A stretch of DNA of 64,000 nt, from assembly GCF_000802205.1 (NCBI RefSeq), contig NZ_CP012850.1, positions 1,550,001 through 1,614,000 on the forward strand, given 5' to 3'. The translations under genes and the position numbers were made by a program. Source of the stretch: Candidatus Nitrosocosmicus oleophilus. Its GTDB lineage: Archaea > Thermoproteota > Nitrososphaeria > Nitrososphaerales > Nitrososphaeraceae. Shown here piece after piece: positions 4,073 to 64,000 of the stretch (position 1 is its first letter; every line of letters starts with the position of its first letter). A model generated the notes under the pieces. The model saw only the letters and a list, made by a program, of their open reading frames with translations, searched no databases and was not told where the DNA came from.

Positions 4073-4937
4073 TAGATTCCAAAAGATCGTTTATCTGATC
4101 TTCACTGTCAAAATAAGCAAGGCTCACTATTCCTAGGATCTCACTTGTGAAGATGAAAACAGAAAAACATTTGTTTTAAAGAGATGAAATTTAAGAATTA
4201 CCCCACTCCTTATACGGTCCTATATCGTTACTAAATTAGGTAGCACATTCTGTTGTATGTGAAACAAATTTGGCTCTAACCCTATTTTTTTTAAATGTAA
4301 ATGGAATTTATGATCCTAGTTCTAAAATAATAGTACAATGATCTTGGATCATCTTTCAAGCATGATGAAGATAATCTGGAGAGGCCGTTTGATTCTAAAC
4401 GGAGAAACTCTTATTGTTCCATGATTACAATTCCTTGGAATATTGGAAATACTGGAAATAATAATGATGCTTCTAGTATGGGCAATCATCTCAACAATTA
4501 GTGTTGCCATTCTCATTCAAGGAATGTTTGAAAGAAAGTAGGATTTCCAAAAATAATATTGGTACCTTGAGAATCTAAATTTGATGTAAAATATAGTAGG
4601 TGATACAGTTGTCCTTTATTGTCACAAATTTATTGAAAAAATTGTTCAAGGAGCAGATAGATCCACGTCATCAAGTTTCATTTTCATAGCACTGACATAT
4701 TAGTAAATAATCATTTCTCCTCCGATATCCACGATCTATAGAACAAAGAATACATAAACGGTTACTATGATTATTAGCGCATAACATTTGACAATTAAAT
4801 ATTAATTTATCAAGATTTAGGGAATTGAAATTCAAACATTCATTTCCCCCGTCTCTGGATCTCCTATATTTGGAACTTTAAAACTAGACCTGAAAAACAG
4901 TGAAAATTAGAGTATTGTAAGAATGAGAATTAAGATA
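4073..4937. other. intergenic region with one tiny membrane ORF candidate
   Basis: No ordinary gene is supported. A 25-codon frame at 4464-4541 (+) encodes MMLLVWAIISTISVAILIQG followed by MFERK, a single hydrophobic helix with a charged tail. It could be a microprotein but has no independent support. Confidence 0.3.
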
Positions 4938-4941
4938 GAAA

Positions 4942-4973
4942 TGAGGTAGTATATGCCATCATTACATACCTCA
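4942..4973 (+). ncRNA. hairpin preceding the tandem array (divergent copy)
   Basis: TGAGGTA (4942-4948) pairs with TACCTCA (4967-4973). The arm begins with the same ATGAGG-type sequence as the two downstream hairpins, but no matching promoter element is seen before it. It may be a decayed first unit of the array. Confidence 0.3.
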
Positions 4974-5067
4974 CTCCTATTTAATGACGCTTTAAGACTC
5001 CTTCAAATAGTTGCTTGAAGTAGATTGATGTGTATAATATAGTATATAATGATAATAAATCGATAAA

Positions 5068-5125
5068 AATGAGGAAAAATCAGATGCATGCGAGGCTAGA
5101 GATAACAGCATCCTATTTCCTCATT
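5068..5125 (+). ncRNA. array unit 1 hairpin; candidate small RNA
   Basis: A perfect 10-bp stem, AATGAGGAAA (5068-5077) with TTTCCTCATT (5116-5125), encloses a 38-nt loop. It begins about 20-25 bp downstream of the first TATA-like box, at the expected transcription start. No reading frame of note is inside. Probably a small RNA or a regulatory leader. Confidence 0.4.
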
Positions 5126-5209
5126 AATGAAGTTGTTTCGTTACTCTTTAACTGGTGCTAGAGTAACCTCGTATGTATAAGATACTATTTAACGATAATA
5201 AAAATATCT

Positions 5210-5269
5210 GGAAATGGGAGGAATAAGATAATGGGGAGCATGAAATTAGCATCTTATCCTCCTCATTCC
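5210..5269 (+). ncRNA. array unit 2 hairpin; candidate small RNA
   Basis: A long imperfect stem pairs 5210-5229 (GGAAATGGGAGGAATAAGAT) with 5251-5269 (ATCTTATCCTCCTCATTCC). It starts about 20 bp after the second TATA-like box. The stem shares the ATG-G-AGGA core with unit 1 but the loop differs, as expected for a family with a conserved frame and variable interior. Confidence 0.4.
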
Positions 5270-5350
5270 ATGACTTGACAAATTACCTTTGTAAGTATAT
5301 CTAGGCCAAAGAATGTGAATAATATAGTATTTAACGATAATAAAAATAGA

Positions 5351-5709
5351 TAGGAGGAGAGGAGACGAGATTAATTATGTTAAAAAAAATGAATGTTCCT
5401 TGCGGTATTAAGTTCTAATACAGTTTAGTGGTCGTCGATTTACGCTTGATGCGAGTTTGAGTTTGATTCATTGGCAAAATAATCTAGTAATATACGTACA
5501 AGTCTAATTCTGGTAAATGAGAAATATCTTGCCAAGCAAGTCTAAATACATCGATTGAGTCACCTAAAAAATCTGTTTTGTTGTATGTAAAGCATTGAAT
5601 TATTTGAAAATCAATTGTTTCTTTGATAATCTATCATAAGATACCAAAACAAGGATGAATGTATTGGTATTAATTATGACCAATAAGGTTGTTCATAATC
5701 ATATGATAT
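5351..5709. other. intergenic region, nothing recognised
   Basis: Follows the third array element. A purine-rich stretch (AGGAGGAGAGGAGACGAGA, 5353-5371) follows the third box, but no partner arm for a hairpin is seen. No gene supported. Confidence 0.4.
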
Positions 5710-6716
5710 TTATGGATTGTTTATGACATCATATATCTTTGTTAGAATATCTACAAATTTCTTTCTGTCAGGACTAGAATTGGTAAATACAATTTCAGTA
5801 AATCCAATATTTACATATTGTTGTAGTTTTTTGATTCCTTCTTCCAAATCAGATATAACAAATAATTTTTTTTGCAAAGAATCATCGTCAATAACCTGAC
5901 CATTTTCTTCAATCTTGGATAATGTACATCAACATCAAAGAATGCTTTAATCATAGATCCTCTCCAAAATCTAATTGATTCTAATGCCTTTTGTTTATTT
6001 TCATCATATGAAGCAGGAATAAATAATATCCTTTCTAGTTTCTCATAGTCTTTTCCTGCCTTAATAGATCCTTTTTTTACGGCAGGGATCAAAATATCTT
6101 TAATTTTTATCTATGTCCAATTCATTAGTTACAAATCCATTTCCCTCCTCGCCGGCTAATTGAGCAGATTGTATGCCCAGACCAGCGATATATATCGGAA
6201 TTGGGTAAGGGGGTTTAGTATATAAATTGGAATCTTTGATTGAATAAAATTCTCCACTAAAAGTAACCCCATCTTGTGACCATAATTTTTTTATTAACTT
6301 AATGGATTCTCTTAAACGTCTAAATTTTTCTATGTTAGGTGGCCAAATATTTCCAGAAGGTACTTCATTTAATGCTTCTCCTCTCCCTAGTCCTAAAAAA
6401 ACTCTTTTTGGAAACATATAAGCCAAAGTAGCAATACTTGTGCTACTATCGCAGGATGATATCTTAGGATAGGAGCTGTTACCCCAGTACCGATAACCAA
6501 TTTGGTTGTCTTTGCTAAGGCAGCTCCCATCCATGGCCATGCAGCCCCTCCGGAAGCTCCTGTATCCCACCAAGGCATATAATGATCACTGGTCCCACAA
6601 CGTTCTATCCCCTTCTTGTCCAAATATATCACATCATCTAACAAATCAATAGGATTAATTTGTTCATGAGCTGCTTGAATACTTAATCTTGTTTTAACCT
6701 CTGCTGATTTTGACAC
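5710..6716 (-). pseudogene. LLM-class F420-dependent oxidoreductase (F420-G6PDH-like), at least three frameshifts
   Basis: Three frames together reconstruct one about 335-aa luciferase-like (TIM barrel) oxidoreductase of the type annotated F420-dependent glucose-6-phosphate dehydrogenase. Segment 1 (6716 down to about 6440) has SDHYMPWWDTGASGGAAWPW and IGTGVTAPILRYHPAIVAQ. Segment 2 has LAYMFPKRVFLGLGRGEALN, IKKLWSQDG and YTKPPYPIPIYIAG. Segment 3 has IPAVKKGSIKAGKDYEKL and then, in another frame, GQVIDDDSLQKKL and IVFTNSSPDRKKFVDIL, ending at the stop 5710-5712. Shifts fall near 6433-6441, at a T5 run (6104-6108) and near 5914-5919. A functional single product is unlikely unless the shifts are assembly errors. 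Substrate is inferred only from family resemblance. Confidence 0.8.
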
Positions 6717-17171: not shown

Positions 17172-17547
17172 TTTCATATGCAAATCATTTTTGTCTGCAT
17201 CTTGAATAATTCATTATCAATCTGCAGATACCCGACTGAAAGTTTTCTTTAGTCCATTCTCAAGGTGATATGTTGTATCCTATTAAATGAAACATTAACC
17301 TCGGTTTATAGAATTATATTTAATTAACTTAATAATGGAACAAAGACAACATTACAGTCTAAACTTCAACAAACGAACATAGTGTATTGGTTTCTTTCAA
17401 TTTCAGTTGCAATTCTGAATATTCTGAATTCTCGAGAAGAGATAGAACGACCCTTACGTATTGCATTAGCACACTATTTAGTTAATTTTGGCACTAGGAG
17501 ACAATATTTACTATCGTTAAATACTTTATTATACATCATTTTCATCT
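17172..17547. other. intergenic region with promoter for the next gene
   Basis: No gene supported. A 60-codon frame (17382-17564) overlaps the next start and lacks coding character. Confidence 0.4.
17518..17534 (+). promoter_or_regulatory. A-box promoter (TTAAATACTTTATTATA type)
   Basis: TTAAATACTTTATTATA lies about 25-30 bp upstream of the ATG at 17548. Nearly the same sequence precedes the genes at 24983, 27307 and 28427 at equal distance, marking a shared core promoter and leaderless messages. Confidence 0.5.
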
Positions 17548-38561: not shown

Positions 38562-38603
38562 AAATTTTTTTGTATAACATAATATTTAATCATGTTCTAT
38601 ATA

Positions 38604-60558: not shown

Positions 60559-61136
60559 AACCTGTCTAGTTGATCAAATATTATAAAGCCTAACCAGATT
60601 TGAGCTAGTATTATTGATTCACCACCAGAATCACAGAGTATGGTTAGTTTTGATATGCTGACTTAAGGATGGATCATCATGTCTTAACGCTATATTCAAA
60701 ATTGAACTTCCTCTAAAGTTATTGAAGAATAGTAGGATTGGAATAACAGAATTAATTTATTACGCATAACTTGTGCACTGAATATGATGGGTGACACATG
60801 GTTTTTGACAATAGTTCTTATCTATAGGAACTCGTAATAAATTTGACTAAATACGTGGATTCAACGCAACATTCTTCTGCTGCTTTGATGAATTCCCAAA
60901 GAACCTTCTGATATTACAATGCATATTGCCTATGTTATTATCTATACAATGATATCTGCAGAATGAGCCTTAGTACTGTTATTGTTTTGTTGTTGAGCCA
61001 GCTGGGAGTCTTATCCTCATGATTTAATATCATTGAATCATTTGGATTTCCATAGGACCGAATTCTATAGACCATACTTTGGGTTAGTATACGTGAGTTT
61101 ATTCATTAATCCTCTATCTCAAAATTTATTGTGATT
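60559..61136. other. long intergenic region, nothing recognised
   Basis: No gene seen in this part of the 1.1-kb gap between 60558 and 61710. Confidence 0.4.
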
Positions 61137-61151
61137 AAATACTTTTATTAT
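61135..61151 (+). promoter_or_regulatory. orphan A-box promoter (TTAAATACTTTTATTAT)
   Basis: Same core motif as before the genes at 17548, 24983, 27307 and 28427, yet no frame opens downstream. Transcription would begin near 61164. Confidence 0.4.
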
Positions 61152-61163
61152 ACAATATCATTT

Positions 61164-61230
61164 GCTGACACACACAACCACAAAAAGTAAAACCATTGGG
61201 AATTTTCCCTACCGATGAGGTATTAGGTCA
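61164..61230 (+). ncRNA. candidate small RNA downstream of an orphan promoter
   Basis: Starts about 27 bp after the A-box. Contains a perfect GGGAA-TT-TTCCC hairpin (around 61197-61208), then CGATGAGG and CTGA motifs reminiscent of C/D-box RNAs, though the boxes do not match the consensus well. No open frame longer than 18 codons. The 61231-61709 remainder has no gene apart from an unconvincing minus-strand frame (61497-61688). Confidence 0.35.
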
Positions 61231-61709
61231 TTACTGAATTTATGTTTGTGGCCTATTTGTATGCCTCATTTCTAGTATTCATATCTGAAATCAATGATGC
61301 ATTTTTTTGTCATGCAAATAATCTTATTCATCCTATTAAAATTTTAACTATTTTTTGCGATCTTTTAATAAAAATAATCAAAAAAACGCAAATAGATTGA
61401 GCATATGAGATCCCGATAGACAATGTAACAATACTGGGATTTTTTGATTGTAGTCAACCTTGCGATTCATTTAGATTTAGCAGGACAAGATAATTGTTAA
61501 CCCCATATCATAATAGTGTAAATTAATTCCAAGATTTTATGACGTTTTGGAATTGAATCAATTGAGTTAATTACTAACTCATCATGTACAGAAGAATTGA
61601 AGATGACCATCAAATATAATAGTTGACCATATGTATTAGTCAATTTGCAATTCTCAATTTTAGTAGAAGGATTGAAAGATAAAAACATAAGTCTAGTGTA
61701 ATCAGATCA

Positions 61710-63342: not shown

Positions 63343-64000
63343 ATGGAAAAAATTTCTAATATCGGCAAACAATATAGAAAAACTGTTTCTCTGTTAACTT
63401 TTTTTGTAATATGGACTTCTATTTTTTCTGTGATTATGTCGATTAACGCTGGAGATTTTACTTCTAATTTATTCCAAGCAGTTTATGCTCAAAATAATCA
63501 AACAGAAGCCGAAGACGTTCAAAAAGAGTCATTAGTGAAAGATGAATCATTGCAAAAACAAGACACGAACAATAATGATAATAAACTTCAACCCCGGGTA
63601 ATTACCAATCCTGGACCTCAGAACTGTGGAATAAATCCCAATGCACCGCCATGCTGTACACCTGGAGAGGATAAAGGATGTATCGGCGAAGTACCTCAGA
63701 ACTGTGGAATAAATCCCAATGCACCGCCATGCTGTACACCTGGAGAGGATAAAGGATGTATCGGCGAAGTACCTCAGAACTGTGGAATAAATCCCAATGC
63801 ACCGCCATGCTGTACACCTGGAGAGGATAAAGGATGTATCGGCGAAGTACCTCAGAACTGTGGAATAAATCCCAATGCACCGCCATGCTGTACACCTGGA
63901 GAGGATAAAGGATGTATCGGCGAAGTACCTCAGAACTGTGGAATAAATCCCAATGCACCGCCATGCTGTACACCTGGAGAGGATAAAGGATGTATCGGCG
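63343..64000 (+). CDS. secreted cysteine-rich tandem-repeat protein (3' end outside window)
   Basis: An open frame from ATG 63343 to the window end without a stop; at least 219 codons. Residues 18-33 are hydrophobic (LLTFFVIWTSIFSVIM) and export cleavage is likely after VYAQ (about 50). A polar linker of about 40 residues follows (QTEAEDVQKES...). From residue 92 it consists of identical 26-residue repeats: PQNCGINPNAPPCCTPGEDK plus GCIGEV, with four cysteines each. Four full copies and most of a fifth are seen. A TATAATTACT A-box lies about 27 bp upstream. Likely a disulfide-stabilised surface or extracellular protein; family not recognised. Confidence 0.8.
   Translation, partial: MEKISNIGKQYRKTVSLLTFFVIWTSIFSVIMSINAGDFTSNLFQAVYAQNNQTEAEDVQKESLVKDESLQKQDTNNNDNKLQPRVITNPGPQNCGINPNAPPCCTPGEDKGCIGEVPQNCGINPNAPPCCTPGEDKGCIGEVPQNCGINPNAPPCCTPGEDKGCIGEVPQNCGINPNAPPCCTPGEDKGCIGEVPQNCGINPNAPPCCTPGEDKGCIG
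63616..64000 (+). repeat. identical 78-bp tandem repeats
   Basis: Units begin at 63616, 63694, 63772, 63850 and 63928 (last one truncated by the window). They are identical in DNA sequence, so the array is young or kept uniform by recombination. The repeat keeps the reading frame (78 = 26 codons). Confidence 0.95.

Follow-up and report, generated by a model that had tools for sequence, protein, structure and literature searches.

A tandem array of three predicted minus-strand small RNA genes in Candidatus Nitrosocosmicus oleophilus and its relation to a dispersed family of hairpin units

The window, the whole stretch of 64,000 nucleotides of the Candidatus Nitrosocosmicus oleophilus genome analysed here, contains an array of repeats and hairpins that probably represents three consecutive small non-coding RNA genes on the minus strand, each with its own promoter, tandem-duplicated and most likely encoding trans-acting regulators. 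Each gene would carry an extended archaeal promoter, designated R, with the TATA box TTAAATA. The product would be an RNA of about 90-110 nt with a short conserved stretch at its 5' end, forming a 5' hairpin in some units, and a long imperfect hairpin, hairpin A, at its 3' end; the stem of hairpin A, AAUGRGG...CCYCAUUUCUAG, is kept by compensatory changes, and its loop differs by subfamily. The array probably originated by tandem duplication of the entire transcription unit, and other copies, single or paired, are dispersed over this genome and those of its relatives. The RNAs would most likely act in trans as post-transcriptional regulators, using the loop or pyrimidine-rich regions. Expression of the RNAs, their exact ends and their function are what we infer from sequence.

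The box GATAATAAA was located at 5051, 5194 and 5336, with spacing of 143 and 142, as given in the preliminary description, and each box was found to lie inside a 33-nt direct repeat, R, whose copies at 5031-5063, 5174-5206 and 5316-5348 are 79-91% identical to the middle one. The three copies of R alternate with three variable hairpins, at 4936-4979, about 5068-5126 and about 5209-5270. Folding against dinucleotide shuffles confirmed the hairpins described after the first two boxes and the one before the first box, each being more stable than the shuffled sequences (z about -2.5; 1-3 of 200 shuffles equally good). No hairpin was detected by folding downstream of the third box on the plus strand (z +1.45). 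The ATG-rGAGGA core once assigned to these hairpins is present in two of them, and the third reads ATGAGGTAG. In agreement with the view that no reading frame explains the pattern, the sole open reading frame spanning the array is one of 43 aa (5030-5161); a tRNA search of the array gave none. The hairpin at 4936-4979 was found to be part of a complete third unit, with a conserved stretch of about 50 nt (4882-4935) ahead of it on the plus strand. As the unit recurs in this genome and in the genus, with covariance E values of 1e-22 to 1e-11, the array pattern is well beyond chance.

Elsewhere in the window, a perfect 78-bp tandem repeat of about five copies occupies 63615-64000 and continues past the window end. 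On the minus strand at 5710-6716, a frame that looks by eye like a luciferase-like monooxygenase is split into several pieces.

The unit, consisting of hairpin A, about 60 nt and R (about 145 nt altogether), was found to be a dispersed family in unrelated intergenic sites, with nine copies in this genome (G000), about 11 in six other Nitrosocosmicus genomes and one in a sister genus. The nine copies include the three of the array, one at 61120-61278 of the window, a pair at 55 kb, and single copies at 1002, 1542 and 3174 kb. By DNA search of 41 genomes, true relatives were detected in the same genome and in G013. A first covariance model, built on eleven aligned units, gave more units in G007, G012, G002, G014, G003 and G000; several of these were weak (E 0.007 to 4), and showed identical anatomy once their sequences were read. 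A second model, built from 18 units, gave E values of 4e-22 to 7e-9 on its own training members. Outside the training set, it detected units of the genus in G013 (C208, E 3e-7) and G012 (C128, E 3.5e-4), and the unit of the sister genus in G078 (C353, E 1.4e-12). The covariance search of Nitrososphaerota genomes proposed beforehand thus yielded relatives with compensatory changes. The second model gave no convincing unit in 8 of the 15 genomes of the genus, and no further convincing unit was found among 300 genomes of the order.

Weak covariance matches in G136 and G241, of another family of the order, were not RNA copies but precede an Alba-like ORF (by eye), and a match in G238 was rejected as not being a unit. 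In genus g44 (loci L204 and L205), which belongs to another family of the order, an ORF judged by eye to be Alba-like has an R-like core, TTATCGTTAAATACTATATTATCC-ATG, immediately ahead of its start.

Comparison with 4227 Rfam covariance models gave none at gathering threshold in the window or in eight loci, except for a tRNA elsewhere in L069, and within 4840-5420 no match was found even at E up to 5. Searches of mainly open literature, judged by titles and abstracts, gave no mention of small RNAs of Nitrosocosmicus or of this unit family. Judged from these sequence comparisons, the family appears new and lineage-restricted. As a separate observation, a sequence of about 50 bp resembling a tRNA 3' end (CCGGTGGGCTTCGAATCCATGAGG) was noticed at L023 8643-8732; it is present in dozens of copies in the genus, and clusters at 1.00-1.11 Mb of G000.

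The structure of the unit was then assessed from the aligned copies. Within the 13-bp stem of hairpin A, 82.9% of cells are paired as compared with 41-47% when the pairing is slid, and 16 cells are double-changed as compared with 7.5 +/- 2.0 after shuffling (0 of 500 shuffles as high), these counts leaning towards the stem as many units were found with a model already containing part of it. The covariation score exceeded all shuffles, which do not keep the relatedness among units; the count of pairs carrying a double change was not unusual (137 of 500 shuffles). Compensatory changes have preserved hairpin A. Folded as a single sequence, hairpin A was strong in most units, and some units (G012 C77 and G003) are without part of the stem. 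A second hairpin, B, was rejected as a family-wide feature, being convincing in only a few units; it is strong in the middle array unit W1, in unit 1 of G013 C51 and in unit 0 at 55 kb of G000. The loops of hairpin A could be sorted by eye into four groups: ..GGCATATAYYCCC.. in the first units of arrays, ..CTCTARCCTCG.. in the second units of arrays, ..CANNACTG..TTG.. in G007, G002, G012 and the 1611-kb copy of G000, and ..YTAGTKTAT.. in G078, the 3174-kb copy of G000 and G013 C208. A conserved stem with group-specific loops is as would be expected of paralogous trans-acting small RNAs.

The same unit might instead be a small non-autonomous mobile element (MITE-like), or a palindrome working at the DNA level, with no RNA product of its own, and this we consider unlikely. 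Like archaeal MITEs and palindromic repeats, the unit is a short, dispersed, intergenic palindrome with several copies per genome; several genomes of the genus lack it, and the asymmetry between G-U and A-C gave no strand preference in the counts. Unlike archaeal MITEs, however, it has a promoter-type sequence at one end, and at single copies neither mutual inverted repeats of the ends nor a target duplication could be seen by eye. Furthermore, the copies are old and diverged, with 58% mean column identity, and nevertheless keep the stem by double changes. Collections of phages, plasmids and viral contigs, in which archaeal viruses are poorly covered, gave no match, and one loop scanned as a spacer-like match to viruses gave none. 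In the search for an empty site at the 1002-kb locus, the neighbour genes were matched separately in other species and no joined empty site was found; in the identity profile of this locus between G000 and G013, the flanks were mostly 92-97% identical, the two species being too close.

For the reading as small RNA genes, the order of parts within the unit bears on the direction of transcription. On the plus strand of the array, the unit reads AACTAGAAATGAGG...hairpin A...about 60 nt...TGTATAAAATAGTATTTAAYGATAATAAAAATA, the last part being R. In tandem arrays, R of one unit adjoins the hairpin of the next; at single-copy loci the order is unchanged, R always being located 3' of hairpin A, and nothing is conserved beyond R. 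In the BLAST comparison of G007 with G002, the aligned segment was exactly the unit, with AACTAG at one side and the end of R at the other (L128 9607-9766, 90.7%); the adjoining intergenic flanks were unalignable, and the neighbour genes were mostly 77-83% identical. The order at single loci and the limitation of this alignment to the unit together indicate that R belongs to the unit and forms its boundary.

On the minus strand, the sequence of R is TATTATCRTTAAATACTATWTTATACA, also written as TATTTTTATTATCRTTAAATACTATWTTATACA. By a genus-wide pattern search, 21 R-like sites outside the units were examined, with start codons counted for ORFs of 25 aa or more. In the minus orientation of R, a start codon was located 28-31 nt from TTAAATA at 8 of the 21 sites, as compared with 4% at random and 0 of 21 in the reverse direction, though this leaves few independent cases, namely three and, in addition, a GTG-start ORF of the window. 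Six of the eight are orthologues, in six genomes, of one 31-aa protein (MSEENKKKFDCRCGAAFDTVEELDKHNHEAH; 28 aa in one), for which the spacing from TTAAATA to the start is exactly 29 in all six. The remaining two are MVHYLKER.. at 17512 of the window and MSIEGENAS.. in G005; the GTG-start ORF near 38571, 28 nt from the motif, is an extra case outside the 21. TTAAATA alone was less informative (8% against 5% for the reverse complement), and the promoter argument therefore rests on the extended motif. A promoter matrix derived from the sequences upstream of 30 tRNAs proved too diffuse for orienting R. As shown by analogy with the protein genes, R would be a promoter directed into the unit.

In agreement with the minus strand, T made up 47% of the sequence following hairpin A on that strand, as compared with 22% after R on the plus strand and 34% in the genome; T-runs of four or more after hairpin A were not commoner than by chance (29% against 22%). 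Mean folding z was -2.6 on the minus strand and -2.1 on the plus strand, several single-copy units favouring the plus strand.

Several genes lying behind this motif were noted in passing. The 31-aa protein is Cys/His-rich and zinc-finger-like, and its gene (L181, L189, L198, L174, L176 and L187) looks leaderless. In the window, the extended R motif at 17503-17541 precedes a secreted-like ORF of 139 aa (MVHYLKERLNRS..), and that at 38571-38594 precedes the GTG-start ORF VSGKDESIK.. of 258 aa on the minus strand.

The preliminary description had proposed a tandem, promoter-driven small RNA family, of which the family and the non-coding hairpin units stand, while the strand and the pairing of promoter with hairpin are revised. 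In that reading, R would be an A-box-type promoter for the plus strand, with the hairpin forming the start of a plus-strand small RNA 15-25 nt after R. That spacing fits two of the three boxes, TATTTAA, which can also act as a TATA box, is found 29 nt ahead of some ATGs, and a number of units fold better on the plus strand. This reading is nevertheless quite improbable, as the third box is without a hairpin downstream and the extended motif never preceded a start codon in this direction. A plus-strand hairpin RNA cannot have R as its upstream promoter, because at single-copy loci the hairpin comes before R and nothing past R is conserved. Given the minus-orientation motif before start codons, GATAATAAA is not the A-box; it is the sequence flanking the minus-strand TATA box TTAAATA on its upstream side, read as the reverse complement. 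The plus-strand starts proposed at 5068, 5210 and 5355 are thus replaced by predicted minus-strand starts near 5020, 5163 and 5305, for which the spacing was taken from the protein genes.

On the minus strand, the three predicted genes, designated W2, W1 and W0, would be arranged as follows. R copy 3 (5316-5348), a copy of the direct repeat whose motif is located 28-31 nt before start codons elsewhere, would be the promoter of W2 and be paired with the hairpin at 5209-5270. The first T of its TATA box TTAAATA is near 5334, and the small RNA is predicted at 5208-5305 with putative ends (covariance match 5205-5349, E 3.4e-12, training member; predicted fold -28.2 kcal/mol, z -2.6), its 3' hairpin A folding with z -3.5. 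On the same basis, R copy 2 (5174-5206) would be the promoter of W1 and serve the hairpin at 5068-5126, with the first T of TTAAATA near 5192 and a predicted RNA at 5066-5168 (covariance match 5060-5207, E 1.8e-14, training member). Both the 5' hairpin B (5140-5167, z -3.9) and hairpin A (z -3.5) of W1 fold. R copy 1 (5031-5063), again on this basis and 79% identical to the middle copy, would be the promoter of W0 and serve the hairpin at 4936-4979 (z -4.9); it carries the TATA variant TTATATA, with its first T near 5049, and the RNA is predicted at 4936-5020 (covariance match 4932-5064, E 4.7e-17, training member). The W0 RNA may possibly extend through the pyrimidine-rich tail beyond the last unit (minus strand, 4882-4935, ending ..CTAGTT), which was found by comparison to be common to four arrays, those of L021, L024, L025 and the window. 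The single further copy at 61120-61278 is oriented on the plus strand, with the promoter at the low end and a predicted RNA start near 61164; it was assigned after reading its sequence, with E 2.2e-11 by the second model, of which it is a training member, and E about 4 by the first, independent model.

The arrangement of promoter, hairpin and U-rich tail could also be that of a cis-acting leader, riboswitch-like or attenuator, of a downstream minus-strand gene, and at some loci a same-strand gene is indeed present 190-430 nt further on. Yet the downstream genes differ between loci, several loci lack a downstream gene on that strand, and three complete units are stacked in the array, making this very unlikely; the neighbour genes common to some loci are apparently coincidental, the gene families being multi-copy. 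That the units are genes for very short peptides is barely credible, for although an ATG (AATGAGG) or GTG lies within the minus-strand stem of most units, many frames stop by codon 3-4 (ATG AGG TAA, ATG AGG TAG, ATG AGG AAA TAG) and others run 10-30 codons without a common sequence. As read by hand, reading frames are not common to the units and the predicted product is non-coding.

Among archaeal trans-acting small RNAs are sRNA154 and sRNA162 of Methanosarcina mazei. The units, as predicted RNA genes, resemble these in being short and intergenic and in having stable stem-loops and a TATA-type promoter of their own, but differ in having many paralogues, some in tandem; we know of no sequence relation of the family to archaeal trans-acting small RNAs. 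Tandem paralogous small RNA genes of bacteria are represented by the Qrr and OmrA/OmrB types. With these the units share adjacent or dispersed copies, a common framework, own promoters and one diverging part, whereas the promoter here is archaeal and it is the loop of the 3' hairpin that diverges.

Ammonia-oxidising Nitrosocosmicus matter for soil nitrification, and the family, for which a promoter, a structure, subfamilies and predicted 5' ends are defined, offers candidates that can be tested directly. Being conserved 29 nt ahead of the start codon of a single small gene across six species, the promoter motif is also a useful anchor for transcription mapping. Tentatively, the units might encode structured regulatory RNAs that form an expanding family of paralogues specific to Nitrosocosmicus and near relatives, in which loop-defined subfamilies perhaps have different targets and the stem is a handle for a common RNA-binding protein. 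If true, this would be an archaeal network of multiple small RNAs of a kind not described before.
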